In this document: positions 25,462 to 38,042 of the stretch, piece by piece
Position numbering within the stretch: the first letter of the stretch is position 1
Layout of the letters: each line of letters starts with the position of its first letter
Origin: Cupriavidus oxalaticus
GTDB lineage: Bacteria; Pseudomonadota; Gammaproteobacteria; Burkholderiales; Burkholderiaceae
Direction: 5' to 3'
Assembly (NCBI RefSeq): GCF_016894385.1
Contig: NZ_CP069812.1
Span: forward strand, 1,860,001 to 1,924,000
Length of the DNA: 64,000 bases
Position numbers and translations under genes: made by a program
Notes under the pieces: generated by a model
Seen by the model: the letters and a program-made list of their open reading frames with translations, nothing else
Database searches by the model: none
Told to the model about the DNA's origin: nothing

Positions 25462-25672
25462 GTCAAAGTTCCTGGTTCACGGGAGGGACGTCTCGCCGGC
25501 TGGCCGGCTGCGTGAGCTCAAGATTAGGTACGGAAGGCCATGGCGACAATGTCATAGATACCACCTTTTCTGCCACCACCAACGAGGGGGGCTTTCACGG
25601 GAAGGAAAGAGTCCCACATGACCCGCGCGCGGTATCCACCGACGATGGCGGTGCCCCGTGAGCAAGCGGGTA

Positions 25673-25717
25673 TGTATCGGACTGTGGCGTCTGCTGCACC
25701 AGATACAGTGCGATACA
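25673..25717. promoter_or_regulatory. operator-like cluster 1: TGTATC ... GATACA-n4-GATACA
   Basis: TGTATC starts at 25673, GATACA at 25702 and again at 25712 (10-bp period). The distance from TGTATC to the first GATACA is 29 bp, exactly as in the cluster at 31395. The last GATACA ends 75 bp before the response regulator start codon, and a TACAAT -10-like box lies 20 bp further downstream at about 25738. Direct half-sites with 10-bp spacing are typical of OmpR/PhoB-type regulators, so autoregulation is likely. Confidence 0.55.
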
Positions 25718-25792
25718 CGGAAAATCGCCGGCACTCATACAATGGCGTCGACGCAGACTGGCGGTTCAGCGTACTTTTCTGAGGGGACAGAG

Positions 25793-26536
25793 ATGGATGC
25801 ACACGTCGACCATATCCTGGTTGTCGATGACGACCGGGAAATCCGGGAGCTGGTATCGACCTACCTGGCCAAGAATGGACTGCGCGTGACCGTGGCGCAG
25901 GATGGCAGGCAAATGCGCTCGATCCTGGAGGCCAATGCCGTCGACCTGATCGTGCTGGACGTGATGATGCCGGGCGACGATGGCCTGGTACTGTGCCGTG
26001 AACTGCGGGCCGGCAAGCACAAGACCACCCCGGTCCTGATGCTGACCGCGCGCAGCGACGAGACCGACCGCATCCTCGGCCTTGAAATGGGTGCCGACGA
26101 CTATCTCCCCAAGCCGTTCGCCGCGCGCGAGCTGCTGGCCCGCATCAAGGCGGTGCTGCGCCGGACGCGCATGCTGCCGCCCAATCTGCAGATCACGGAA
26201 GCGGGCCGGCTGCTGGCGTTCGGCGACTGGCAGCTGGACACCACGGCGCGGCATCTGATCGACCACGATGGCATCATCGTCGCGCTGAGTGGCGCGGAAT
26301 ACCGCTTGCTGCGCGTGTTTGTCGACCATCCGCAGCGCGTGCTCAACCGCGACCAGCTGCTCAGCCTCACGCAGGGCCGCGAGGCGGAAATGTTCGAGCG
26401 GTCGGTCGACCTGCTGGTCAGCCGGTTGCGCCAGCATCTCAAGGACGATGCGCGCGAGCCCCGCTACATCAAGACCGTGCGCAGCGAGGGCTACGTGTTC
26501 TCGATGCCGGTAGCGATCCGGGAGGCGCGGCAGTGA
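25793..26536 (+). CDS. OmpR-family response regulator
   Basis: A 247-residue two-component regulator. The receiver domain has the acidic triad Asp12-14, the phosphoacceptor Asp56 (LIVLDVMMPGDDG), Thr (MLTARSDE) and Lys (YLPKPFAAREL). The C-terminal winged helix ends in ERSVDLLVSRLRQHLKDD and YIKTVRSEGYVFS. ATG 25793 follows GAGGGGACAG; an in-frame open stretch upstream overlaps the operator cluster and is not used. The sensor kinase gene overlaps its stop (GTGA). It is the best candidate to bind the GATACA-type sites in this region. Confidence 0.94.
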   Translation: MDAHVDHILVVDDDREIRELVSTYLAKNGLRVTVAQDGRQMRSILEANAVDLIVLDVMMPGDDGLVLCRELRAGKHKTTPVLMLTARSDETDRILGLEMGADDYLPKPFAARELLARIKAVLRRTRMLPPNLQITEAGRLLAFGDWQLDTTARHLIDHDGIIVALSGAEYRLLRVFVDHPQRVLNRDQLLSLTQGREAEMFERSVDLLVSRLRQHLKDDAREPRYIKTVRSEGYVFSMPVAIREARQ

Positions 26537-27834
26537 ACCTCCGGGCCTTGCCGTGGCCCCGCACGCTGGGCGCGCGGCTGTTCCTGATCCTGCTGGCCGG
26601 GCTGGTGGTGGCTCATGGCCTGTCGTTCGGCGTGCTGTTTGCGGAGCGCTACATCACCGCGCGCCAGGTCATGCTCGGCACGCTGGAAACCGACGTATCA
26701 ACGTCGATCGCGATCCTCGACCGCGTGCCGGCGGCGGAGCGGCCGCAGTGGCTGCGGCACGTCAACCGCGGCAACTACCAGTATGTGCTCGGGCCGGGCC
26801 TGCCGGGCGTGCCGGAGATGAGCGCGCAGGCCCAGGAGATCGCCGACCGCATTACCGAAGCGAGCGGCGGCCGCTTCCCCGTCAGGGTCGAATCGATCCC
26901 GGGGCAGGGCAAACGCCTGCAGGCGCACCTCACCCTCAGCGATGGCAGCCCGCTGACCATCGACGTGCATCCGAAGCCGCCCGCGATCGCGCAATGGCTG
27001 CCCTATGTGCTGGTGCTGCAGTTGTTGCTGCTGGTGCTGTGCTGCTGGCTGGCGGTACGGCTGTCGCTGCGCCCGGTGGTGGCGCTGGCCAATGCCGCCG
27101 ACGCCCTCGACCCGAACGCCGCGAGCGAGCCGCTGGCCGAGACCGGGCCGACTGAACTGGTGCGTGCCGCGCGCGCGTTCAACGCCATGCGCGAGCGCAT
27201 TGCACGCTTTGTCGAGGAGCGCGTGCAGATCCTGGCGGCAATCTCGCACGACCTGCAGACGCCGATCACGCGCATGAAGCTGCGCGCCGAGATGGCGGAT
27301 GACTCCGAAGACAAGCGCAAGCTGGTGCACGACCTTGCCGAGATCGAGACGCTGGTCAAGGAGGGGCTGACCTATGCGCGCGCCATGCATGGTGACGGCG
27401 AGAAGGCATCGCGGATCGACATCGGTTCTTTTGTCGAGAGCCTGGTCTACGATTACCAGGACACCGGCAAGGCCGTCACCATCCGGCAGAATATCGGCGG
27501 CGCCATCCTGACGCGCCCGCACGCCCTGCGCCGCATCCTGACCAACCTGACCGACAACGCCATCAAATTCGGCGGGGCGGCGGAGCTGAGCGTGCGCCGC
27601 GACGGCGCCGCGGTGGTGATCGGCGTGCTTGATCGCGGGCCCGGCATCCCGGCAGAGAAGCTTGAATCCGTGATACAGCCGTTTGTCCGGCTCGAAGCGT
27701 CGCGTAACCGGGAGACCGGCGGCACGGGCCTGGGCCTGGCCATCGCGCACCAGCTGGCGCTGGCGATCGGCGGTTCGCTGACGCTGCGCAACCGGGAGGG
27801 CGGTGGGCTGGAGGCGCAGCTCAGGCTTGGCTGA
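26533..27834 (+). CDS. sensor histidine kinase (EnvZ-like layout)
   Basis: A 433-residue membrane kinase. Two membrane segments (about 15-37 and 154-177) enclose a periplasmic domain of about 115 residues; then come HAMP, dimerisation with His239 (ISHDLQTPITRMK), and an ATPase domain (NLTDNAIKFGG, DRGPGIP, GGTGLGLAIAHQL). The GTG start overlaps the TGA of the response regulator gene by four bases, so the pair is cotranslated. The periplasmic domain has no cysteine that would mark a thiol sensor. The signal is unknown; neighbouring genes suggest envelope redox stress. Confidence 0.93.
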   Translation: MNLRALPWPRTLGARLFLILLAGLVVAHGLSFGVLFAERYITARQVMLGTLETDVSTSIAILDRVPAAERPQWLRHVNRGNYQYVLGPGLPGVPEMSAQAQEIADRITEASGGRFPVRVESIPGQGKRLQAHLTLSDGSPLTIDVHPKPPAIAQWLPYVLVLQLLLLVLCCWLAVRLSLRPVVALANAADALDPNAASEPLAETGPTELVRAARAFNAMRERIARFVEERVQILAAISHDLQTPITRMKLRAEMADDSEDKRKLVHDLAEIETLVKEGLTYARAMHGDGEKASRIDIGSFVESLVYDYQDTGKAVTIRQNIGGAILTRPHALRRILTNLTDNAIKFGGAAELSVRRDGAAVVIGVLDRGPGIPAEKLESVIQPFVRLEASRNRETGGTGLGLAIAHQLALAIGGSLTLRNREGGGLEAQLRLG

Positions 27835-27871
27835 GGGGACAAGCCTCGCTCAGGACGCGCGGATTTCAAGA

Positions 27872-27902
27872 GTTCCCGCATAGGCGGGAACCCAGTGACT
27901 TC
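27872..27902. repeat. half copy of an interspersed inverted-repeat element
   Basis: GTTCCCGCATAGGCGGGAAC followed by CCAGTGACTTC matches one arm of the fuller elements at 55083-55184 and 62086-62163. The inner TTCCCGC...GCGGGAA can form a hairpin. It lies in the 276-bp gap after the histidine kinase gene; nothing else is seen in that gap. Confidence 0.7.
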
Positions 27903-28110
27903 ATCGGCCCCCGCTGACGGCAGGTTGCCCCGGCGAGCCCCGCAGCGCTGCACCGCGCCACATCGCGTTGGCGACCGCCGTGACGCAATTCTCCAGAAGT
28001 TGTCTATGCTTGCGCGTAAGCCGGCGACGATTGCTGGCCGATCCTCAGTGCGCATGCAACGCTGCGCATGGTGAGTGCAGCGGGCACGGCACAAGGCAAG
28101 GAGGAACGCG

Positions 28111-29481
28111 ATGGCCAAGGGATTCGACGCAATCATCATCGGTACCGGACAAGCCGGCCCCGCACTTGCCGCGCGGCTGTCCGGCGCGGGCATGAACGTG
28201 GCCGTCATCGAGCGCGCGCATTTTGGCGGCACCTGCGTGAACACCGGCTGCATTCCTACCAAGACCCTGATCGCGAGCGCTTATGCGGCCCACCTTGCGC
28301 GGCGGGCGGGCGACTATGGCGTGACGATTGGCGGGCCGGTCGCTGTCGACATGAGGCAGGTGAAGGCGCGCAAGGACGGCATCGCCGGGCACTCCGCCAG
28401 CGGCGTGGAACAGTGGATGCGCGGCCTGGCCAACGGCACGGTCTACCAGGGGCACGCCCGCCTGGAAAGCGCGCACGGTGTGCGCGTCAATGGCGAACTG
28501 CTGCAAGCCGACCGCATCTTCATCAACGTCGGCGGCCGGGCCCTCGTTCCGCCGATGCCCGGGCTCGACACGGTGGCGTACCTGACCAATTCGGGCATGA
28601 TGGACGTGGACTACCTGCCGGAGCACCTGGTCGTCATTGGCGGCAGCTACATCGGCCTGGAGTTTGCCCAGATGTACCGCCGCTTTGGCGCCAGGGTCAC
28701 CGTCGTGGAAAAAGGCCCGCGCCTGATCCAGCGCGAAGACGAAGACGTGTCGGAGGCGGTGCGGGAGATCCTGGAGCGCGAGGGGGTGGAAATCCGCCTC
28801 GATGCCAACTGCCTGAGCGCGCGCCGGGCCGGAGAGGGCATCGCCGTCGGGCTCGATTGCGCGACCGGTTCGCGCGATGTGCACGGCTCGCACCTGCTGC
28901 TGGCGGTGGGGAGGGTGCCCAACACGGAAGACCTGGGGCTCGACAAGGCCGGTGTCGAAACCGACGAGCGCGGCTATATCAAGGTGGATGAACAGCTGCG
29001 CACCAGCGTTCCCGGCATCTGGGCGCTGGGGGACTGCAACGGCCGCGGGGCCTTCACGCATACGTCGTATCACGACCACGAGATCGTCGCCGCCAACTTG
29101 CTCGACAACGATCCCCGCACGGTTGCGGACCGCATCACCGCCTATGCCTTGTTCACCGATCCCCCGCTCGGGCGCGCCGGCATGACGGAAACGCAGGCCC
29201 GCCAGAGCGGGCGCAAGGTGCTGGTCGGCAGGCGCACGATGAGCCGCGTCGGGCGCGCCGTGGAAAAGGGCGAAAGCCAGGGCTTCATGAAAGTGGTGGT
29301 CGATGCCGAGACCCGCTTGATCCTGGGGGCGGCAATCCTGGGCCTGAACGGCGACGAGGTGATCCACTCGCTGCTCGACGTGATGTATGCCGGGGCACCC
29401 TATACCACCATCAGCCGCGCCATGCACATCCACCCGACAGTCTCCGAGCTGGTGCCGACGATGCTGCAGGAGCTGGCATAA
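28111..29481 (+). CDS. class I pyridine nucleotide-disulfide oxidoreductase (RclA/MerA-like)
   Basis: A 456-residue flavoprotein with the FAD motif [10 protein letters not shown] and the redox-active disulfide [14 protein letters not shown] (Cys42, Cys47). It also has a central NAD(P) motif ([20 protein letters not shown]) and the C-terminal dimerisation domain ending [17 protein letters not shown]. It lacks the N-terminal metal-binding domain and C-terminal Cys pair of mercuric reductase, and resembles RclA-type enzymes that protect from oxidants or keep copper reduced. ATG 28111 follows AAGGAGG. It lies between a two-component system and a dipZ-like gene. Confidence 0.9.
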
Positions 29482-29513
29482 GCCGGAATGAGTGAATGGA
29501 AGGGAGGCCGGCC

Positions 29514-31313
29514 TCAGCCGAAGGTAAAGGCATAGGCCTGCGCACCGGTGTCCAGGAAGCGGATCTCGAAGGTATGCTCTCCCACCTTGCCGGCCTGGCG
29601 TACCAGTTGGTAGAGCCGCGTCTGCGTGACCGCACCGTTGCCGGCGGCATCGATGTCGGCGCCGTGGCTGTCGCCAGGGGGCTTGCCGTCGATCGTCACC
29701 AGGAAGCGCACCGCCCGGCCGTCGGGCGCCGGACCCAGCACCAGGTGCAGGTCGCGTGCATGGAAGCGATAGGCGATGCTGCCATCGGCCTTGTCGACGG
29801 TAGCCCGCTCGGCGCCCACGGTCCATTGGCCGGCCAGGCCCCACTGGTTGAGCCGGAGCTTGCCGACGCCGTACCGCTGCGGGGCATCCTGCCGCATGCC
29901 GCCCGGCGAGGCGAAGTTGGCCGCTTGCAGATAGCCCAGGTAGGTTTCGCCGGAGCGGAGATTGGACAGGTCCGGTGCGGCCTGGGCGCCTTCCGCAAGC
30001 GGGGCGACGACATCGCGCGCCGTGGACGGCTGGCCGGCTTCCGCCAGCAGCGCCTGGATCACACGCTCCGAGTTGGCGTAGTCGCCTTCGCCGAACTGGT
30101 GGTGGCGGATATTGCCGTGGGCATCGACAAAATACGCGGCGGGCCAGTAGCTGTTCCGGAAGGCGCGCCAGATGCGGTAGTCGCTGTCGACGGCGACGGG
30201 GAAGCCGATGCGGAAGTTCGCGACCGCGCGCTGCACGTTGTCCGGCGATTTTTCGAAAGCGAACTCGGGCGTGTGCACGCCGATCACCGTCAGGCCCTGG
30301 TCCTTGTACTTGTCCGCCCACGCGCGCAAATAGGGCAGGGTGCGGATGCAGTTGATGCAGGAGTATGTCCAGAAGTAGACCAGCGTGACTTTGCCGCGCA
30401 AGTGATCGCGCGTGAGCGGTGCCGAGTTGATCCATTGCACGGCGCCGTCGAGTGCCGGCATGCGGCCCTCCACTGGCAGGCGGCTCGGCATGGCCACCGG
30501 CATGTCATTGGCGGCCAGCAGCATGCCGGTGCCGGGCTCTGCCGCCGCGTGCGCGGCCTGGGGCGCAGGGCGCGCCTTGTGCAGCACGTCGACCAGCGCC
30601 TGTTCGATCCGCGCCGGCCCGCTCGCGGACAGGCGGGCCAGCAGGCCGGTGTCGGCGCCCAGCCCGATGGCAAGCACGCTGCCAAGCACGCCGGCACCCA
30701 GCCCCCGCCGCACCCATTCACCGGCACCCATCGACCGCTTCATGGCTGCCAACACGTGGGCGCCGATGCCGAGCGCGGCCGCCAGCGAGGTCGCCGCGCC
30801 CGCGGCATAGGCGGCCAGCGCCAGGGAGGTCGAGACGCTCGCGCCCTGCAGCGCCGCAGCGGTCAGCACTATGCCGAGGATCGGCCCCGCGCAGGGTGCC
30901 CATAGCATCCCGGTGGCGATGCCGAGCAGCAGCGATCCCCAGGGCGAAGGTGAGGCTGTCTGGGTCGAAGCTGAGGCCGCGGCAGCGTTGCCGGCCAGGC
31001 GGTTGCCAAGCGCCACCAGGGGCCGGGCCAGCGTATCCGCCACCTTTGGCAGGAGCAGGGAGAGCCCGAACAGTGCCAGCAGCGACAGCGCGGCCAGGCG
31101 CCCGTAGGCATTGGCCTGCACAGCCCAGGCGCCGCCGGCCGAGGCCAGCGTGGCGATGGCGGCAAAAGTCAGCGCCATGCCGGCCAGCATCGGCAGCTTG
31201 CCGCGCAGGAACGGCTGGCCGGCGCGGCTCAGCACGAAGGGCAGGACCGGCAGGATGCAGGGGCTCAGGATGGTCAGTACCCCCCCGAGGTAGGCGAGTA
31301 TCAGCAGGCTCAT
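29514..31313 (-). CDS. DipZ-like protein: CcdA-type membrane domain + redoxin + C-terminal domain
   Basis: A 599-residue fusion. Residues 1-245 are a CcdA/DsbD-like membrane domain with single conserved cysteines Cys19 (ILSPCILPVLP) and Cys141 (WAPCAGPILG). Residues about 285-430 form a periplasmic thioredoxin-like domain with Cys319-Ile-Asn-Cys322. The last 150 residues match the carbohydrate-binding-module-like domain of DipZ proteins (YLGYLQAANF ... FRFLDTGAQAYAF-type end). It should carry electrons from cytoplasmic thioredoxin to exported thiols. ATG 31313 begins the first membrane segment; the open frame upstream is non-coding. A GGTACA half-site lies 82 bp upstream. Confidence 0.9.
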   Translation of the reverse strand: MSLLILAYLGGVLTILSPCILPVLPFVLSRAGQPFLRGKLPMLAGMALTFAAIATLASAGGAWAVQANAYGRLAALSLLALFGLSLLLPKVADTLARPLVALGNRLAGNAAAASASTQTASPSPWGSLLLGIATGMLWAPCAGPILGIVLTAAALQGASVSTSLALAAYAAGAATSLAAALGIGAHVLAAMKRSMGAGEWVRRGLGAGVLGSVLAIGLGADTGLLARLSASGPARIEQALVDVLHKARPAPQAAHAAAEPGTGMLLAANDMPVAMPSRLPVEGRMPALDGAVQWINSAPLTRDHLRGKVTLVYFWTYSCINCIRTLPYLRAWADKYKDQGLTVIGVHTPEFAFEKSPDNVQRAVANFRIGFPVAVDSDYRIWRAFRNSYWPAAYFVDAHGNIRHHQFGEGDYANSERVIQALLAEAGQPSTARDVVAPLAEGAQAAPDLSNLRSGETYLGYLQAANFASPGGMRQDAPQRYGVGKLRLNQWGLAGQWTVGAERATVDKADGSIAYRFHARDLHLVLGPAPDGRAVRFLVTIDGKPPGDSHGADIDAAGNGAVTQTRLYQLVRQAGKVGEHTFEIRFLDTGAQAYAFTFG

Positions 31314-31394
31314 GATCAGTGTTTCCCACAGGGCTTGGCTTCCCCGTATCAGACACCGTCCGCGTAGCCGGATTGTGTCGTGGATCGGCGCCTG

Positions 31395-31439
31395 TGTACC
31401 GGATTGTCGAGCCCGTGCCGCCAGATACACTGCCATACA
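31395..31439. promoter_or_regulatory. operator-like cluster 2: TGTACC ... GATACA-n4-CATACA
   Basis: TGTACC starts at 31395, GATACA at 31424 and CATACA at 31434. Spacing is 29 bp between the inverse half-sites and 10 bp between direct ones, the same as in cluster 1, and flanking bases are also partly shared (CGGA-TTGT versus CGGA-CTGT; CCAGATACA in both). It lies 82 bp upstream of the dipZ-like start codon. Confidence 0.55.
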
Positions 31440-31557
31440 AAAACCTGCCGCGGCACGCATCGGGCAGGGCGAAAGCGTCCCGCCGGTCTGCTCAACATCG
31501 AGAGTGTCGAGAGCGTCGTATTCGCACCCGCCCTGGCTGAGCGGGACGGTCCGGCGA

Positions 31558-31584
31558 CGTACCGACTTTGTACGCCTTTGTATC
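31558..31584. promoter_or_regulatory. operator-like cluster 3: CGTACC, TGTACG, TGTATC
   Basis: Three half-sites in the same orientation start at 31558, 31569 and 31579, that is 11 and 10 bp apart. They lie in the 431-bp region between the dipZ-like gene and repeat protein 3, about 160 bp upstream of the latter. The rest of that region (31314-31744) shows no gene. Confidence 0.45.
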
Positions 31585-31744
31585 AACGCGACCTCCCGAC
31601 ACGTCCGGCGACAAAAGTGCCGCCCATCCGCTAAGGGGCAGATACATCGGTCGCCTTCAATGCAATCCGTGGCACGGCGGTGAACTGCAACACAAGCAAT
31701 CCCGGTGAGCCGCAACTCCGATGACCATTTACTGGAAGCTGATC

Positions 31745-32080
31745 ATGACTGCCAACACTGCAAAGACTGTCAATATTGCCAAGCGTTTTGTCTTCGCCAT
31801 CGCCCTGCTGGCCGCCGCCGCTGGCGCACAGGCCGCGTCGTCCGGCGTCGGTGCGCGCGACCCGTACACCGACGGCGCCCGTGCCGTGCACGATGCGCGC
31901 AGTCCGTTCAACGACGGCGCCCGCTCGGTGCAGTCGCCGCGCAGCCCGTACAGCGACGGCGCCCGCTATGTCGATCCGTTCACGGACGGCGCACATTCGC
32001 TGGCCGGCATGGATCGCACCGGCGTATCGGCCGAGCCGGCGCGCAGCATCGACCCGTACCTGGACGGTGCCTACGCCTGA
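31745..32080 (+). CDS. exported DGA-repeat protein 3
   Basis: A 111-residue protein with a Sec signal peptide (RFVFAIALLAAAAGAQA, cleavage near residue 30). Mature repeats are DPYTDGAR, SPFNDGAR, SPYSDGAR, DPFTDGAH and DPYLDGAY. Between the last two lies the block LAGMDRTGVSAEPARSID, nearly identical to the N-terminal block of repeat protein 2. It has no cysteine. ATG 31745 with GGAAG six bases upstream is chosen; ATG 31721 in frame is an alternative. The gene lies between the dipZ-like gene (divergent) and a TlpA-like gene (same direction, 131 bp downstream). Confidence 0.8.
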   Translation: MTANTAKTVNIAKRFVFAIALLAAAAGAQAASSGVGARDPYTDGARAVHDARSPFNDGARSVQSPRSPYSDGARYVDPFTDGAHSLAGMDRTGVSAEPARSIDPYLDGAYA

Positions 32081-32211
32081 CGCCATGCAACCTGGGTGGC
32101 CAGGGCCGCATCAGGCGCGGAGCGCGCCGATTCGCCGCGCTCCGGCAGACGCCGGAGCGGACGGGCCCCTGGGGCATCCGCTTCCCTCACAATTCTGCAC
32201 GGACCAGTATC

Positions 32212-32766
32212 ATGCGCACGACGTTATACCGCCTCGTACCGATAGGGCTGCTGATAGGGCTGCTGATCGCGGCAGCCGGAATTGCCGCCTTCGGCCAGCG
32301 AGGCCTCGCACCGGCCGTTGGCGACCAGGGTCGCGCGCCCGAGTTCGCAGGGATCCATCAGTGGCTGAACTCGCCGCCGCTGTCCATGGAGGGCCTGCGC
32401 GGTAAAGTCGTGCTGGTCGATTTCTGGACCTATGCCTGCGGCAACTGCATCAACACGCTGCCATACGTAAAGCAGTGGCACCACAAGTACAAGGACCAGG
32501 GCCTGGTCGTGGTGGGCGTCCACACGCCGGAATTCCCGTTCGAGAGATCGACCGCCAACGTGCAGGCGGCGATCAGGCGCTTCGATATCCGCTATCCGGT
32601 TGCCCTGGACAATGCCTACGCCACGTGGTCAGCCTTCAGCAACCAGTACTGGCCCGCCCTCTACCTGATCGATGCCAATGGGCGCATCGTGTACAAGCAC
32701 TATGGCGAGGGCAGCTACGCCGAAACCGAGGACACCATCCGCAAGCTGCTGGCGCAACGCCAGTAA
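32212..32766 (+). CDS. membrane-anchored TlpA/redoxin-family protein
   Basis: A 184-residue protein with an uncleaved N-terminal membrane segment (LVPIGLLIGLLIAAAGIAAF) and a periplasmic thioredoxin fold with Cys76-Gly-Asn-Cys79 (DFWTYACGNCINTLPY). It is strikingly similar to the redoxin part of the DipZ-like protein 1 kb away: both share WLNS/WINS, LRGKV, FWTYxCxNCIxTLPY, KYKDQGL, GVHTPEFxFE and YWPA. The two probably arose by duplication of the domain. It may receive electrons from the DipZ membrane domain. Cys76 and Cys79 differ from the DipZ site in the two middle residues (GN versus IN). Confidence 0.87.
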   Translation: MRTTLYRLVPIGLLIGLLIAAAGIAAFGQRGLAPAVGDQGRAPEFAGIHQWLNSPPLSMEGLRGKVVLVDFWTYACGNCINTLPYVKQWHHKYKDQGLVVVGVHTPEFPFERSTANVQAAIRRFDIRYPVALDNAYATWSAFSNQYWPALYLIDANGRIVYKHYGEGSYAETEDTIRKLLAQRQ

Positions 32767-32832
32767 GCGCCTCGCACAGATCTCACGGACGGGATTTCAC
32801 GGACGCGCGGCAAAGCCGCGCCAGTGGATATA

Positions 32833-32853
32833 GGCCGCGCTGGCAGCGCGGCC
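32833..32853 (+). terminator. GC hairpin downstream of the TlpA-like gene
   Basis: GGCCGCGCT and AGCGCGGCC form a perfect 9-bp stem with a GGC loop, followed by only TTT. It is a possible terminator for the TlpA-like gene, 67 bp after its stop, with weak T-tract support. The rest of 32767-33067 shows nothing else. Confidence 0.45.
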
Positions 32854-33067
32854 TTTGGCCGTCCGTTTGCTGGTCATGATTACATCGGTGAGCGCCTGCG
32901 CGTCACCGAGTCAGTGCCGATACCCGTCTGCCGTTTTTCCACGCGCTCTCGCCGGGGCATGCCGCTCCATATGCAGCGGTGGCCGGAACCACCAAGCTCC
33001 GAAGCGAGTGCTGACAGGGTCATGGCAGCCAGTATCAATACTCTGCGCAGCATGGCGGTTCGCCCCG

Positions 33068-34120
33068 TCAGCGCTTGTCGACGTCCAGTACCGCCTGCGC
33101 AAAGGCCGTGGGCGCTTCCTGCGGCGGATTGTGGCCAATCCCGCCGGCCAGGTCCCGATGCTCGTAGCGGCCGGTGAACTTGCTGGCATAGGTGCCGGGT
33201 TTGGGGTGCGGCGCGCCGTTGGCATCGGCTTCGATGGTGATGGTGGGCACGCTGATGGCCGGCGCCGTGGCGAGGCGCTTCTCGAAGTCGTCGAACCGGG
33301 CCTCGCCGGCAGCCAGCCCCAGCCGCCAGCGATAGTTGTGAATGGTAATGGCCACGTGATCCGGATTGTCGAAGGCGGCGGCACTGCGGTCGAACGTGGC
33401 GTCATCGAAATCCCACTTCGGCGACGCCAGCTTCCAGATCAGCCTGGCGAACTGCCGGGTGTACTGCTTGTAGCCGGCCTGGCCGCGGTCCGTGGCGAAA
33501 TAGAACTGGTACCACCACTGGAGCTCGGCCTCGGGCGGCAGCGGCTGCTTGCCGGCCGCCTGGTTGCCGATCAGGTAGCCGCTGACCGCAACCAGTCCCC
33601 TGCAGCGGTCCGGCCAGAGGGCGGCCATGATGGCGGCGGTGCGCGCGCCCCAGTCAAAGCCGGCCACCACGGCGTTGCGGATGTTGAGCGCGTCCATCAG
33701 GGCGATCATGTCGACGGCGATTGCCGAAGGCTGCCCGTTGCGCATGGTGTCGGCGGAAAGGAAAGTCGTCGAACCATAGCCACGCAGGTAGGGAACGATC
33801 ACCCGGTAGCCGCGGGCCGCCAGCAACGGCGCCACGTCGACGAAGCTGTGGATATCGTAGGGCCAGCCGTGCAGCAGCAGCGCGACGGGCCCGTCGGCCG
33901 GGCCTGCCTCGGCGTAGCCGACGTTCAGCACCCCGGCGCGGACATGCTTGATCGGGCCGAAGGTCTTGTGGGTGCCTGGTGCCGTCGCCGGCAGGGGTGC
34001 CGCCCTGGGCATCGCGGTTTGCGCGCGGGCGGCCTGCGACAGGCCCAGCTGCGCGGCGGCCAGCGCCATCGTTGCTGCGCCCAGAAAGCCTCGACGAGGC
34101 AAATCGATCGTGTTCGACAT
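33068..34120 (-). CDS. Tat-exported alpha/beta hydrolase (epoxide-hydrolase-like)
   Basis: A 350-residue protein with a twin-arginine signal (LPRRGFLGAATMALAAAQ). The alpha/beta hydrolase fold shows HGWPYD (84-89, oxyanion region) and a nucleophile elbow GFDWGAR with Asp156 rather than Ser. The late GIGHNPPQE supplies the catalytic His. An Asp nucleophile points to epoxide hydrolases or dehalogenases rather than esterases. ATG 34120 follows AGGAGAAG. A GATACA-type operator lies 83 bp upstream. The natural substrate is unknown; export is unusual for an epoxide hydrolase-like enzyme. Confidence 0.85.
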   Translation of the reverse strand: MSNTIDLPRRGFLGAATMALAAAQLGLSQAARAQTAMPRAAPLPATAPGTHKTFGPIKHVRAGVLNVGYAEAGPADGPVALLLHGWPYDIHSFVDVAPLLAARGYRVIVPYLRGYGSTTFLSADTMRNGQPSAIAVDMIALMDALNIRNAVVAGFDWGARTAAIMAALWPDRCRGLVAVSGYLIGNQAAGKQPLPPEAELQWWYQFYFATDRGQAGYKQYTRQFARLIWKLASPKWDFDDATFDRSAAAFDNPDHVAITIHNYRWRLGLAAGEARFDDFEKRLATAPAISVPTITIEADANGAPHPKPGTYASKFTGRYEHRDLAGGIGHNPPQEAPTAFAQAVLDVDKR

Positions 34121-34202
34121 CTTCTTCTCCTGTATGCGGAATCAACCTGAGGCTGAGTGTAGGAGGCCGTGGCAAGCGGCATGTGTCGAACGTCATGAGT
34201 TT

Positions 34203-34247
34203 TGTACCGCCATGTATATGCCGGCGTCTGCCAAATGTGCTGATACA
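34203..34247. promoter_or_regulatory. operator-like cluster 4: TGTACC, TGTATA ... GATACA
   Basis: TGTACC starts at 34203 and TGTATA at 34213 (10-bp period), with GATACA at 34242, 29 bp after TGTATA. This is the same geometry as clusters 1 and 2. The near edge is 83 bp upstream of the exported hydrolase start codon, and the only other neighbour is the 3' end of the NDH-like gene. Confidence 0.5.
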
Positions 34248-34317
34248 AAGCGATCGCCCCATGAAATGCAAAGAGGGCGATCCCCCGGATCGCCCCTTTC
34301 CTTCCTGCCTTGTGCCC

Positions 34318-35529
34318 TCAGGCCACGACGATGTGCCGCGGGTCAGCCAAGGCAAGCGCTTCTTCACGACTGGCGCTCGGGGGATAGATCCACTCGGTAT
34401 TGATCCGCGTCTTCAGCGCCTTGGCGACGCCGCCCGTCATCTTCACCTGGCGGTTCCAGCCTTCCGTGTAGACAGCACCCCAGGGCCCCAGGTCCAGGCA
34501 GGTCACGTACTTCGGCTGGCTATAAGGGATTTGCGCCGCGCCCACCAGGTCTGCTGCCACGTTGTGGCCCGCCGAGCGGCCGAGATTCATGGCGTGCTGG
34601 CAAGACATGGTGGCGAAGTTGCCTTCGTCATCGGTCGCGGCATAGGCGCAGTCGCCGGTGGCGAACACCGCGTCGACCCCCTTGACCTTCAGGTTGCGGT
34701 CAACATGAAGCCGGCCGAAGTTGTCCCGCTCTGCCGGAATCTGTGCGGTGAGTTCGCTGGCCCGGGCACCCGCCGTCCAGATCACGGTGTCTGCCTCGAT
34801 GCGCTCCCCGTTCTCGAGCGTGACGCCTTTTGCATCAACAGCCGCGACACCCGAGCCGAGCTTCCATGTCACCCCAAGCTCGGTCAGCGCCTGCGTGATG
34901 ACCGGACGCGGACCCTCGCCCAGGTCAGGGCCGATCTCGGCATTGCGCTCGACCATGATCACGTTCACGGCAGCGTCCTCGCCGAGGACCTCGCGCAGGC
35001 GAGCCGGCATTTCGGCAGCTGTCTCGATACCGGTAAAGCCGGCACCCGCGATTACCACCGTATTGCGGCCGCGGCCCTCCGGGCGGGAGGCCAGGCCATG
35101 GATATGCGCTTCAAGTTCCGCTGCGTCAGCGACCTGGTCGACATTGAAGGCATGCTGGTCCAGCCCCGGAATCTGCGGCCGGAACAGGCGGCTTCCTGCG
35201 GCAAGCACCAGACGGTCATAGCTGATGCGCTGGCGCGGCGCATCCGCGCCAACGCCCGCAACGCTCACCGCCTGGTTTGCGACATCGATGTGCTCCACCT
35301 TGCCCTGGATGAACCTGACGCCAACAGCCTGGAAGATGTCCTGCAGCGGCGCTTTCATCCCGTTCGGATTCTGCTCGTAGAGGCGAGGGCGGACGTGCAG
35401 TTCCGGCTTCGGTGCGACAAGGGCGATCTCCACATCGGTGCGCCCAACCTGGTCAAGCAAACGGGCCGAAGCCAGCGCGCTCCACATGCCGGCAAAGCCG
35501 GCGCCGATGACAAGAATCCGCTTGGACAT
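34318..35529 (-). CDS. NDH-2-like FAD-dependent NAD(P)H dehydrogenase
   Basis: A 403-residue flavoprotein with two dinucleotide-binding motifs (GAGFAG at 9-14, and VIAGAGFTGIETAAEMPARL in the middle) and the FAD motif VDAVFATGDCAYA. It resembles type II NADH:quinone reductases but has no obvious C-terminal amphipathic anchor, so membrane quinone reduction is uncertain. It is divergent from the cupin gene. The shared region carries two copies of a CTACGA-type palindrome, so both genes are probably under one repressor. Confidence 0.85.
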   Translation of the reverse strand: MSKRILVIGAGFAGMWSALASARLLDQVGRTDVEIALVAPKPELHVRPRLYEQNPNGMKAPLQDIFQAVGVRFIQGKVEHIDVANQAVSVAGVGADAPRQRISYDRLVLAAGSRLFRPQIPGLDQHAFNVDQVADAAELEAHIHGLASRPEGRGRNTVVIAGAGFTGIETAAEMPARLREVLGEDAAVNVIMVERNAEIGPDLGEGPRPVITQALTELGVTWKLGSGVAAVDAKGVTLENGERIEADTVIWTAGARASELTAQIPAERDNFGRLHVDRNLKVKGVDAVFATGDCAYAATDDEGNFATMSCQHAMNLGRSAGHNVAADLVGAAQIPYSQPKYVTCLDLGPWGAVYTEGWNRQVKMTGGVAKALKTRINTEWIYPPSASREEALALADPRHIVVA

Positions 35530-35614
35530 CTTTCATGCTCCTGAACAAATCTCATATAACAGGCCGACGCCGCTGCGGCGTAGCGCGCCCGATCTAAACA
35601 GCGAGCGCTCATCC

Positions 35615-35657
35615 GCGCCGCATAACTACGATCATAGTAGTCGTAGTTATGCGGCGC
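35615..35657. promoter_or_regulatory. 17-bp perfect inverted repeat containing operator copy A
   Basis: Arms 35615-35631 and 35641-35657 are perfectly complementary (GCGCCGCATAACTACGA and its reverse complement) with a 9-base loop. A run of seven T follows at 35662-35668, so it could also act as a terminator hairpin. The inner part, 35626-35648 (ACTACGA...TCGTAGT), matches 35730-35752 at about 19 of 23 positions. Confidence 0.7.
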
Positions 35658-35729
35658 AAGATTTTTTTCGACTGCTACCCGCGGACCCGCGCGCCTGGCT
35701 TGCGCTCCGGCACGCAATCCATTATCGTT

Positions 35730-35752
35730 ACTACGACTTATGTAGTCGTAGT
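35730..35752. promoter_or_regulatory. operator copy B, ACTACGAC...GTCGTAGT
   Basis: An 8-bp perfect inverted repeat with a 7-base spacer, just upstream of the cupin ribosome binding site and 104 bp from copy A. The paired sites suggest a dimeric repressor controlling the divergent NDH-like and cupin genes. No obvious cognate regulator gene is adjacent. Confidence 0.6.
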
Positions 35753-35767
35753 TTAAAGGAGATAGAC

Positions 35768-36193
35768 ATGAAACCCAAACGCCTGCTTTTGTCCCTCATG
35801 GCCGCCACAACGATGGCATTCTGTGGCGCCGCAGCCGCGCATGGAACCGGCGAGACGGTGAAGGAGAACTTTGCCCGACCCGTCACCAACATCCCGGGCA
35901 AATCACTGATCGCAGTGGAAGTGCTTTATCCGCCCGGGGCTGCCTCCGCACCGCATTTCCACGCCAAGTCGGCATTCATCTATGCCTATGTCGTCACAGG
36001 CAGCATTGCGAGCAAGGTCGACAATGGGCCGGAACGCATCTACAAGGCGGGCGAGAGCTTCCATGAGGAGCCCGGATCGCACCATGCAGTCAGCCGCAAC
36101 GCGAGCAAGTCAAAGCCCGCCAAACTGCTGGCCGTGTTTGTGGTGGACAGCGATGACAAGGAACTGACGACGTTGGAAAGGAGCGCGAAATGA
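35768..36193 (+). CDS. exported cupin-domain protein
   Basis: A 141-residue protein with a Sec signal peptide (LLLSLMAATTMAFCGAAAAHG). The mature part is a small cupin with metal-ligand-type histidines in APHFHAKSAFIYAYVVTGSIASKVDNGPERIYKAGESF and the second motif EEPGSHHAVSRNAS. Single-domain periplasmic cupins of this kind have no settled function. ATG 35768 follows a strong AAGGAGATAGAC. The gene is divergent from the NDH-like gene and sits directly behind a palindromic operator, so it is probably induced together with it. Confidence 0.84.
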   Translation: MKPKRLLLSLMAATTMAFCGAAAAHGTGETVKENFARPVTNIPGKSLIAVEVLYPPGAASAPHFHAKSAFIYAYVVTGSIASKVDNGPERIYKAGESFHEEPGSHHAVSRNASKSKPAKLLAVFVVDSDDKELTTLERSAK

Positions 36194-36270
36194 GGCTCGC
36201 GATCAGCTTCCCATGCCCGGCGCCGCCAGACCCCTGATCCTGACTATCCTGGCTGGACTTGCCTTGACTC

Positions 36271-36729
36271 TCAGTGGCGGTGGGCGCCTGATGCCTTCAC
36301 GTCCGGCACCGTGACTGCCACGGACTCGGTAGCGAGGATCTTGTGGCTGGGGTCGGCAAGCTCCAGGCGGATCTTGTGATCCCCGGGAGCAAGGCCGACC
36401 ACGATAACTGGATCAAGACTGGTATGTGCCCATGTGCCGCGCCAATCGTCGATGGTCACGTGAAGATGACCGATTCGCGGAGATACCTTGACGGCATCTT
36501 GTCCGAAGACCGGCATCACACGAAAGTTCTCTGTCTTGAATTGAATGATCACCACGCCGCGTGCCAATGGGTCGGCCAGCGGAGGGTAGGCGACGAGCCT
36601 CGGCGCTGCTTCCGACTCGAGCGGAAGAATCGCGGGGGGCTGCCCGACTTCCGGTCGCTGCTGCGCCAATGCGGGAACGCATACCGTGAACGATACGATT
36701 GTTGCAAACAGCCTGAACGAATTTAGCAT
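36271..36729 (-). CDS. DUF6130 family exported protein
   Basis: A 152-residue protein with a Sec signal peptide (LFATIVSFTVCVPALAQ). The mature part contains RGVVIIQFKTENFRVMPVFGQDAVKVSPRIGHLHVTIDD and VIVVGLAPGDHKIRLELADPSHKIL, a beta-sandwich-like pattern I associate with DUF6130. The role is unknown. The ATG follows AAAGGAAC. Its neighbours are exported or oxidant-related (cupin, Ohr), so it may belong to the same stress set. Confidence 0.75.
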   Translation of the reverse strand: MLNSFRLFATIVSFTVCVPALAQQRPEVGQPPAILPLESEAAPRLVAYPPLADPLARGVVIIQFKTENFRVMPVFGQDAVKVSPRIGHLHVTIDDWRGTWAHTSLDPVIVVGLAPGDHKIRLELADPSHKILATESVAVTVPDVKASGAHRH

Positions 36730-36813
36730 GATGTTCCTTTGGGCGCGCCAATCCTGTACAAGGCCGGCGCTTCGTGCTGGTTCTGTCAGATGAAGCGCCG
36801 CCGGCTAGCCCGA

Positions 36814-37227
36814 CTACACAAGCAGCGTTACGACGTCAATATTGCCGCGTGTGGCCTTCGAATACGGGCACGTCTGGTGCGCTGTCGCAATCAGAGCCTC
36901 CGCCAGCTCACGGTCGATGCCCGGGAGGCTCACGTGAAGCCGAGCCTGCAGCAAATAGCCGTCGTCATTCATGCCCAGATCGATCTCCGCATCAATGGCA
37001 GTCTCTTTGGGTAGGGCAATTCCCTTCGTCTGCGCAGCTTTGCCAAGGGCGCCGATAAAACACGCCGACCAGCCGGCCGCGAGCAACTGCTCAGGGTTCG
37101 TTCCGGTGCCAGTGCCCAGATGAGACAGTTTGATGTCCAGGTGACCATCAGAGCTACGTGCTGCGCCGTCCCGTCCACCTGTGGTACGGGTCTTTCCAGT
37201 GTAAATAACCTTTTCCAGTCGAGGCAT
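36814..37227 (-). CDS. ohr: organic hydroperoxide resistance protein
   Basis: A 137-residue OsmC/Ohr-family thiol peroxidase. The two catalytic cysteines are Cys56 (LLAAGWSACFIGAL) and Cys120 (AHQTCPYSKATRGNIDV), with the spacing and surroundings of Ohr rather than OsmC. It reduces organic hydroperoxides using lipoylated proteins in characterised relatives. No ohrR (MarR) gene is next to it; instead an Rrf2-type regulator is divergent, and GATACA-type half-sites fill the gap, the nearest 81 bp upstream of its ATG. Confidence 0.92.
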   Translation of the reverse strand: MPRLEKVIYTGKTRTTGGRDGAARSSDGHLDIKLSHLGTGTGTNPEQLLAAGWSACFIGALGKAAQTKGIALPKETAIDAEIDLGMNDDGYLLQARLHVSLPGIDRELAEALIATAHQTCPYSKATRGNIDVVTLLV

Positions 37228-37307
37228 TGCGATGCTCCAAAATTTGCATTCAAAGAAAGCGCAGGAGGAGGGCTCCCGCTGCTTCGGAGGACATTAGATT
37301 CGACCCA

Positions 37308-37385
37308 TGTATCTGGCGTGTACCTTCCAGTTGGGAGAGCGTATGCCTGCGTATCTGGGCTGGAGTGGAGATACAAGAGAATACA
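37308..37385. promoter_or_regulatory. operator-like cluster 5 between ohr and the Rrf2 gene
   Basis: Half-sites start at 37308 (TGTATC), 37319 (TGTACC), 37340 (CGTATG), 37350 (CGTATC), 37370 (GATACA) and 37380 (AATACA). Adjacent members of each pair are 10-11 bp apart, and the inverse pairs are about 30 bp apart. The near edges are 81 bp from the ohr start and 100 bp from the Rrf2 start. Confidence 0.5.
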
Positions 37386-37484
37386 AAGCCTGTCTCCGGA
37401 CCTGGAAGCAGCGTGTGCTGGCCTTGTGGTCCCCAAGGAAGTTGTATAGCATTGCAACTACGACAAATAAAGTCTGAGTAAGCC

Positions 37485-38042
37485 ATGTCCTACATCAGCA
37501 CAGGCGTCGAATACAGCCTGCACTGCCTGCTGTACCTGACGCGTTCGCGGGCGGCCGTGGAGGAAGCCAGCGTCCGTGATCTGGCTGAGCTTCAAGGCGT
37601 TCCGCACGACTTCCTGGCCAAGCTGTTCACCAAGTTGGCCAAGGCCGGGCTCGTGGTTGCGACGGAGGGCATCAAGGGCGGATTCCGACTCGCTCGGCCC
37701 GCCAATCAGATTACCGTTCACGATGTCGTGGTCGCGATCGACGGCGAGAAGGCGCTGTTCGACTGCCTCGAGATCCGTGGGCGCTGTGCCGTCTTCGATG
37801 ATCACGCACCGGGCTGGGCGACGCGTGGCGTCTGCTCGATTCACGCTGTCATGCAGGCCGCGGAGAAAGCCATGCGGGCGGAACTGAAGCGGCACACTTT
37901 GGCCGACCTTTCCCAGCGCGTTAACGACAAGACACCGGCCAGCTACGGGATGCAGGTTGTCCAATGGCTGTCGGATCGTGCGGCAAATCGGCGCGGCGAA
38001 AAGCCTGCGGCCACGCGCTCGGGTCCGCGCAGGAGCAGTTGA
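37485..38042 (+). CDS. Rrf2-family transcriptional regulator
   Basis: A 185-residue Rrf2 protein with an N-terminal winged helix (ISTGVEYSLHCLLYLTRSR, VRDLAELQGVPHDFLAKLFTKLAKAGLV, KGGFRLARP). Three cysteines at 94, 101 and 117 could hold an Fe-S cluster as in IscR/NsrR, although the spacing (7 and 16) is wider than in IscR. It may sense oxidants and control itself and the divergent ohr gene. Members of this branch without a cluster act by thiol switching, so both readings are open. Confidence 0.88.
   Translation: MSYISTGVEYSLHCLLYLTRSRAAVEEASVRDLAELQGVPHDFLAKLFTKLAKAGLVVATEGIKGGFRLARPANQITVHDVVVAIDGEKALFDCLEIRGRCAVFDDHAPGWATRGVCSIHAVMQAAEKAMRAELKRHTLADLSQRVNDKTPASYGMQVVQWLSDRAANRRGEKPAATRSGPRRSS

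Follow-up and report, generated by a model that had tools for sequence, protein, structure and literature searches.

A shared GATACA operator before envelope redox genes of Cupriavidus oxalaticus points to a probable OmpR-type regulon

Why should one short repeat recur in five intergenic clusters of a single locus, before the gene of a response regulator and before genes for thiol and hydroperoxide chemistry of the envelope? Is it an operator, which protein would read it, and to what would such a regulon answer? These questions are raised by a stretch of Cupriavidus oxalaticus DNA (assembly GCF_016894385.1, contig NZ_CP069812.1, positions 1,860,001-1,924,000), which at its full length of 64,000 nt is called the window here and whose own positions serve as coordinates; RR denotes the response regulator encoded in it at 25793..26536 (+). 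The explanation that we favour, with a probability of about 0.82 for the whole of it, is that the locus constitutes a small self-contained two-component regulon. It looks like a real, apparently unstudied stress regulon, since related bacteria keep the operator before the same kinds of gene; among the titles and abstract openings returned by open-access literature searches, none describes this RR-regulon pair. An earlier sequence-only reading of the window had proposed a shared operator, an OmpR-type regulator and a local regulon, and this core of it has good support from footprinting of upstream DNA, by the same gene families elsewhere, by the co-occurrence of the sites with RR and by residue/base covariation.

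The upstream DNA of loci holding RR relatives (the best 80 from named genomes) was compared, and a 20-bp motif was built from 22 of 31 sites upstream of RR genes, the 22 being from other genera and none of them from the window or from Cupriavidus. On the window, this motif ranks 31423(+), 37369(+), 34200(-), 25701(+) and 31566(-) first to fifth; below the five clusters the next score is 12.4, and the maximum across 60 simulated windows is 17.4. The operator elements, with their motif scores, are the following.

25670..25720, plus strand: operator of the RR gene; distal TGTATC (25673)/TGTGGC, proximal GATACA (25702)-GATACA (25712); 22.8 at 25701(+), partner 12.4 at 25670(-)
31392..31442, plus strand: operator between dipZ and the CopQ-like gene; TGTACC at 31395, GATACA at 31424; 32.8 at 31423(+), the highest in the window and the top model match in the genome
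31566..31585, minus strand: second operator of the dipZ/CopQ-like intergenic region; 22.6
34200..34250, minus strand: operator of the hydrolase gene; TGTACC at 34203, GATACA at 34242; 24.1 at 34200(-); conserved, with a downstream promoter-like block, in the 11 other genus loci compared
37306..37325, minus strand: operator closest to ohr, read from the sequence; TGTATC (37308)-N5-TGTACC (37319), 11-bp spacing; TGTAYC pairs match at five places in the genome, of which this is one
37337..37388, plus strand: best operator of the ohr/Rrf2 intergenic region; 28.3 at 37369(+), partner 9.6 at 37337(-)

The half-sites and gene distances given by the sequence-only reading are in the sequence: the nearest half-site lies 82 bp from the start of dipZ (31313), 83 bp from that of the hydrolase gene (34120) and 81 bp from that of ohr (37227), and the RR-gene element ends 75 bp upstream of the RR start. 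Its five clusters of half-sites paired at 10-11 bp stand in so far as tandem half-sites with this spacing, typical of the OmpR/PhoB family, occur in all five, some with one degenerate half; both halves are exact in two only (25702/25712 and 37308/37319), against a mean of 0.02 exact pairs in second-order simulations. An inverse pair at exactly 29 bp, claimed for three clusters, is found in two, and in the third the exact half-site lies at 39 bp because that at 29 bp is degenerate; TGTAYC...GRTACA at either 29 or 39 bp occurs four times in the window, whereas 300 second-order simulations gave 0.01 occurrences on average. For the fifth cluster, the listed sites are as given, and the strongest one, GATACA-N4-AATACAAAG at 37369-37388, had been overlooked.

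A search of the whole genome, proposed together with that reading, returned exact matches confined to this locus. The short pattern RTACAN5RTACAAA has four of them in the 6,694,750 bases (two contigs) of the host genome, all at window positions 31425-37387, and none when reversed, the control used throughout; a sequence-only model (R1) likewise gives four matches at E<=10, all in this locus. Allowing one mismatch brings no enrichment in the host genome (14 matches, 13 for the control), and the analysis therefore relied on exact or scored matches only. A lack of enrichment in related genomes had been named as the result that would count against the idea; enrichment is present instead. Across 40 genomes of the genus (G numbers below; L numbers designate individual loci), the pattern has 155 matches and the control 12. 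RR orthologs (E<=1e-80) are found in 36 of these genomes and all 36 carry sites (153 matches; control 11), while those with no ortholog detected, namely G011 (54% complete), G015, G048 and G056, have 1, 0, 0 and 1 (one-sided rank test of RR presence against site count, p=0.0008, kinship ignored). G015 gave no match to the RR ortholog, hydrolase, dipZ or the pattern; in G048 the RR ortholog, hydrolase and pattern were not found, and its dipZ relatives are without a site. In 14 genomes of other genera, chosen for holding an RR locus, the pattern has 34 matches and the control 6. Among 150 genomes across the order, 50 have a pattern match; the control is also common there, therefore the short pattern alone is uninformative outside the genus and this count was not used.

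The genes concerned are these.

25793..26536, plus strand: OmpR-type response regulator (RR), 247 aa; Pfam Response_reg and Trans_reg_C; probable reader of the operators
26533..27834, plus strand: sensor histidine kinase, 433 aa; HAMP, HisKA and HATPase_c; periplasmic domain of ~115 aa
29514..31313, minus strand: DipZ-like membrane thiol-disulfide protein with CcdA-like and thioredoxin-like parts; Thioredoxin_10, AhpC-TSA; PDB 2hyx (DipZ), E 2.7e-58
31721..32080, plus strand: orf119, small exported repeat protein, 119 aa; no Pfam match; some relatives named CopQ
32206..32766, plus strand: TlpA/ResA-like periplasmic thioredoxin; Redoxin, AhpC-TSA
33068..34120, minus strand: exported alpha/beta hydrolase of the epoxide-hydrolase type; PDB 5bov (putative epoxide hydrolase), 470 bits over 297 residues; twin-Arg signal read by eye
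36814..37227, minus strand: Ohr-family organic hydroperoxide reductase; TIGR03561, 155 bits, above the cut-off of 88.85
37485..38042, plus strand: Rrf2-family regulator (PF02082), possibly a divergent target

Do other bacteria keep the operator before the same genes? When 15 window proteins were compared with the related loci by tblastn, RR (mostly with its kinase) was accompanied by at least one of DipZ, hydrolase, Ohr and TlpA, in many different gene arrangements, in Rhizobium, Pseudomonas, Lelliottia, Lysobacter, Variovorax, Paraburkholderia, Massilia and Cupriavidus; several loci hold RR and kinase alone. The sites tend to precede the gene that heads an operon: in most Rhizobium loci the site lies between dipZ and the hydrolase gene, with RR behind the latter, and in Lysobacter it precedes ohr-TlpA-RR-kinase. 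The position of the RR-gene operator is kept in the genus orthologs, and its Pseudomonas version, GATACA-N4-ATACAAA, also precedes RR in Variovorax, Massilia and others. At scores above 18, 59 related loci contain 106 matches (some of them training sites upstream of RR genes), against 1 for the reversed motif and 0, 1 and 0 in three simulations, and 83 of the 106 fall in the 400-bp stretches that precede genes of the set, which make up 3.8% of the DNA. With a threshold of 15 and the same 400 bp, in regions not shared with the RR upstream, sites precede the hydrolase gene in 18/21 cases, dipZ in 10/15 and orf119 in 6/9; where the region is shared, the figures are 10/11 for dipZ, 2/4 for TlpA, 1/1 for Ohr and 0/2 for the hydrolase. 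The negative controls gave 2/56 for kinase genes and 3.7% for random 400-bp windows. All 12 rhizobial loci with an RR identity of at least 73% that lie outside the training set (L006-L012, L014, L015, L017, L027, L035) have sites beside dipZ, hydrolase or ohr, and in genus loci sites oriented like that at 31566..31585 precede the orf119/TlpA genes. Around pattern sites, 20 extra genus stretches were picked by site, leaning towards recurring site sequences; the hydrolase gene is directly downstream in 11 of them (7 are over 100 kb away from RR or on a different contig, 4 within 10 kb), orf119 in one and a glxA-like gene in one. In other genera, the genes near sites further comprise those of an MbnB/TglH/ChrH protein, CzcE, a second exported epoxide hydrolase (EHN), a secreted cupin and DUF2790.

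As a separate observation, the Pseudomonas sites at L019 14120, L020 14173, L022 12122 and L023 15167 are near a gene for an MbnB/TglH/ChrH-type enzyme of ribosomally synthesised and post-translationally modified peptides (assigned in L019 by Pfam and in L020 by resemblance) and near EGKCGEGKCG-repeat proteins, which look bufferin-like. Within the window, a FAD-containing oxidoreductase (28111-29481; NF004990, above cut-off) is encoded between the kinase gene and dipZ without a motif match of its own, and the gene of a DUF6130 protein (36271-36729), with no match directly upstream, adjoins ohr.

The basic site is a tandem GATACA pair, often faced by a second pair 31 bp away. Among 109 sites scoring above 20, a facing partner (score above 7, opposite strand, upstream) is found at 31 bp in 36, at 30 bp in 6 and at 32 bp in 2, hence in 44 at 30-32 bp against a background of 0.14 per offset, in a count that enters a pair of two strong members twice and includes related, hence non-independent, genomes. 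The idealised unit of ~51 bp can be written TTTGTAT-N5-TGTATCT-N11-AGATACA-N5-ATACAAA, and its facing dimer sites are three helical turns apart. After the operator, a promoter-like block is conserved in 12 hydrolase upstream regions (the window and 11 others; one genome appears twice), and TACAAT occurs ~20 bp past the last half-site in 9 of the 11 RR upstream regions compared within the genus. Such an arrangement is consistent with activation from near -35. On the orf119/TlpA side, the conserved block GTATCGCGCCCGTAGCG and its variants precede the operator by ~60 bp (L119, L121, L122, L123, L125, L126, L167).

How might such a regulon work? The kinase would sense an envelope signal and phosphorylate RR, whose phosphorylated dimers would bind head-to-tail at tandem GATACA-N4-GATACA(AA) near -35; at many promoters, a second dimer would occupy the facing weaker site, three helical turns upstream. 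The RR operon itself, dipZ, the CopQ-like/TlpA genes, the exported epoxide hydrolase gene and ohr would thereby be activated, rather than repressed, and their products would probably maintain the thiols of the envelope in reduced form and clear lipid hydroperoxides as well as epoxides. Going by the gene content, our best guess is a role in damage to the envelope by oxidants, lipid peroxides or epoxides. As for the signal, a Cys-based sensor was rejected, the periplasmic part of the kinase having no conserved Cys; His132 (QxHLxLxDG), nearly invariant across 20 aligned sensors, is a possible ligand contact. In Burkholderia cenocepacia, microarray data show that peroxide and hypochlorite induce three ohr genes (PMC2830190), for which no link to the window system was found; nor was a link found in Pseudomonas aeruginosa data on hypochlorous acid (PMC7950407).

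A different physiology deserves consideration, namely that the regulon responds to a metal (copper or silver) and that its genes for thiol and hydroperoxide chemistry serve to repair the damage that follows. The case for it begins with orf119, which has 142 homologs: among the 120 listed, mostly from Cupriavidus where named, two are called copper resistance protein CopQ and many hydroxyquinol 1,2-dioxygenase, the latter probably a wrong name for these relatives of 66-183 aa. The CopQ link is one of names only, and many copQ homologs of C. metallidurans CH34 are described as metal-induced (PMC7563307). The sites of other genera near MbnB/TglH/ChrH-type, CzcE and DUF2790 genes, together with the nearly invariant His132, point the same way. 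Nonetheless, the core set of Ohr, DipZ, TlpA and epoxide hydrolase is not of the metal-efflux type, and RR reaches only 147.1 bits against the heavy-metal regulator family (CzcR/SilR/CopR; TIGR01387), whose cut-off is 279.2, so that membership of this group was rejected. We regard a metal response as the less likely reading, though it is a live alternative and the most serious competitor to a role in oxidant damage.

The self-contained regulon must also be weighed against several observations that do not fit it well. Of the 106 matches in related loci, 23 lie outside the upstream regions of the gene set, and a cruder gene assignment puts 69 beside named genes, based on a simpler open reading frame caller that overextends starts and is less reliable than the 400-bp upstream assignment. 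A direct upstream site is found in only 6/22 cases for Ohr, 5/19 for TlpA and 38/60 for RR, some of these genes being inside operons. Among the 34 distant RR loci (L051, L053-L085), 13 have a site above 16; five of the 20 extra genus stretches have no gene of the set beside the site, and in two further ones ohr or TlpA is the only one near, 0.6-0.9 kb away. Concerning the regulator, four A-type (GATACA) loci have Arg or Ala at residue 214 (see below), and a host paralog, L172, has Gln214 with a different helix and is without such a site. G056, a complete genome without an RR ortholog, has retained a strong operator (30.8) ahead of the hydrolase gene; over the 2800 bases compared, this region is identical to that of C. 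metallidurans CH34 (NC_007974.2). The dipZ relative of G056 has no operator. Finally, G011, in whose 54% complete genome RR was not found, keeps the hydrolase operator (26.9) and another site (25.1). The orphan operator of G056 is located at L179 1726.

Which regulator, then, reads the operator? RR belongs to the OmpR/PhoB family by its domains (PF00072 and PF00486, both above cut-off), and it is likely the reader, because the sites co-occur with its orthologs and Gln214 tracks the A-type site. At GATACA-type loci residue 214 is Gln in 48/52 (Arg in 3, Ala in 1), whereas at GTTACA-type loci it is Arg, Lys or His in 8/8 and never Gln (0/8), in a table that leaves out 37 loci with an unreadable upstream type and is not corrected for phylogeny. 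This residue (codon at ~26432-26434 in the window) presumably touches DNA, by analogy with OmpR/PhoB structures. The choice of the local RR as the obvious candidate, made in the sequence-only reading, is backed by co-occurrence and covariation, with G056 and G011 as its exceptions. Could the main reader of the operators be a different OmpR-family regulator that shares the recognition helix, or could there be several such paralogs, with RR as just one of them? In G056 (L182), a paralog 48% identical to RR carries FDRSIDLLVSRLRQ, almost the recognition helix of RR, and has GATACAAA in its own upstream, so the operator can have other readers; GATACA sites also stand upstream in distant RR branches (L053, L059, L064). 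However, of the 60 RR-like matches in the host genome, the four next-best were examined and none has the helix of RR, though one has Gln214, and across the genus the sites follow the local RR. A RisA-like host paralog, named by resemblance, has Lys at 214 and falls on a separate branch. Either of these readings is improbable in our view. As to the repeats being a common word that clusters by chance and regulates nothing, the half-sites do have only six bases and some pairs are degenerate, but the notion is excluded by the motif trained on other genera, by simulations and by controls with the motif or the pattern reversed, and is contradicted further by uniqueness in the genome, positional conservation and the same gene families elsewhere.

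A broader proposal is more tentative, and we would rather doubt than assert it: that RR represents a distinct branch of the OmpR-type regulators, spread over alpha-, beta- and gammaproteobacteria, with GATACA half-sites where others use GTTACA and with Gln214 for Arg, Lys or His. It would act through a 51-bp operator on which two tandem dimers face each other along the same side of the helix, and would govern a movable set for detoxification of the envelope (exported epoxide hydrolase, Ohr, DipZ/TlpA and CopQ-like proteins). If true, this would be, as far as the literature searched shows, the first two-component system dedicated to lipid-peroxide or epoxide damage of the envelope. A conserved system with a predicted operator, a compact regulon and genes that occur in many arrangements lets specialists test what envelope damage is sensed, and it gives a context to CopQ-like proteins and to exported epoxide hydrolases of the 5BOV type, on whose regulation the single open-access search aimed at it returned no paper.

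Known systems resemble this one in part. The enterobacterial pair OmpR/EnvZ provides the best NCBIfam matches for both window proteins, yet RR scores 257.8 bits against OmpR (NF007005; cut-off 331) and the kinase 178.1 bits against EnvZ (NF007004; cut-off 415), so far below that membership of either equivalog was rejected. AgrR of C. metallidurans comes from the same genus, is OmpR-type and has a CopQ-like target, PrsQ2 (PMC7380067); its operator mixes inverted and direct half-sites, with a consensus ATKACANNNNTGTMAT in a 6-4-6 inverted repeat, whereas in the window tandem pairs face one another at a distance of three turns. RisA/RisK of Bordetella pertussis, of the OmpR branch, likewise has an OmpR-type regulator and hexamer half-sites, often several per region. 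The kinase sensor fold also resembles RisS, a match too weak to be relied on (best E 0.022, TM about 0.5). Chromatin immunoprecipitation sequencing of RisA gave the consensus GTTACA in 391/430 peaks (PMC11019879), while the window and the orthologs of RR show GATACA, in the window at a handful of sites; on account of this different half-site, membership of the RisA group was rejected. Gln214 as opposed to Arg, Lys or His is possibly a specificity switch among OmpR-like regulators, and GATACA/Gln214 and GTTACA/Arg-Lys offer a natural pair for studying how OmpR-type specificity changes and how cross-talk is avoided.

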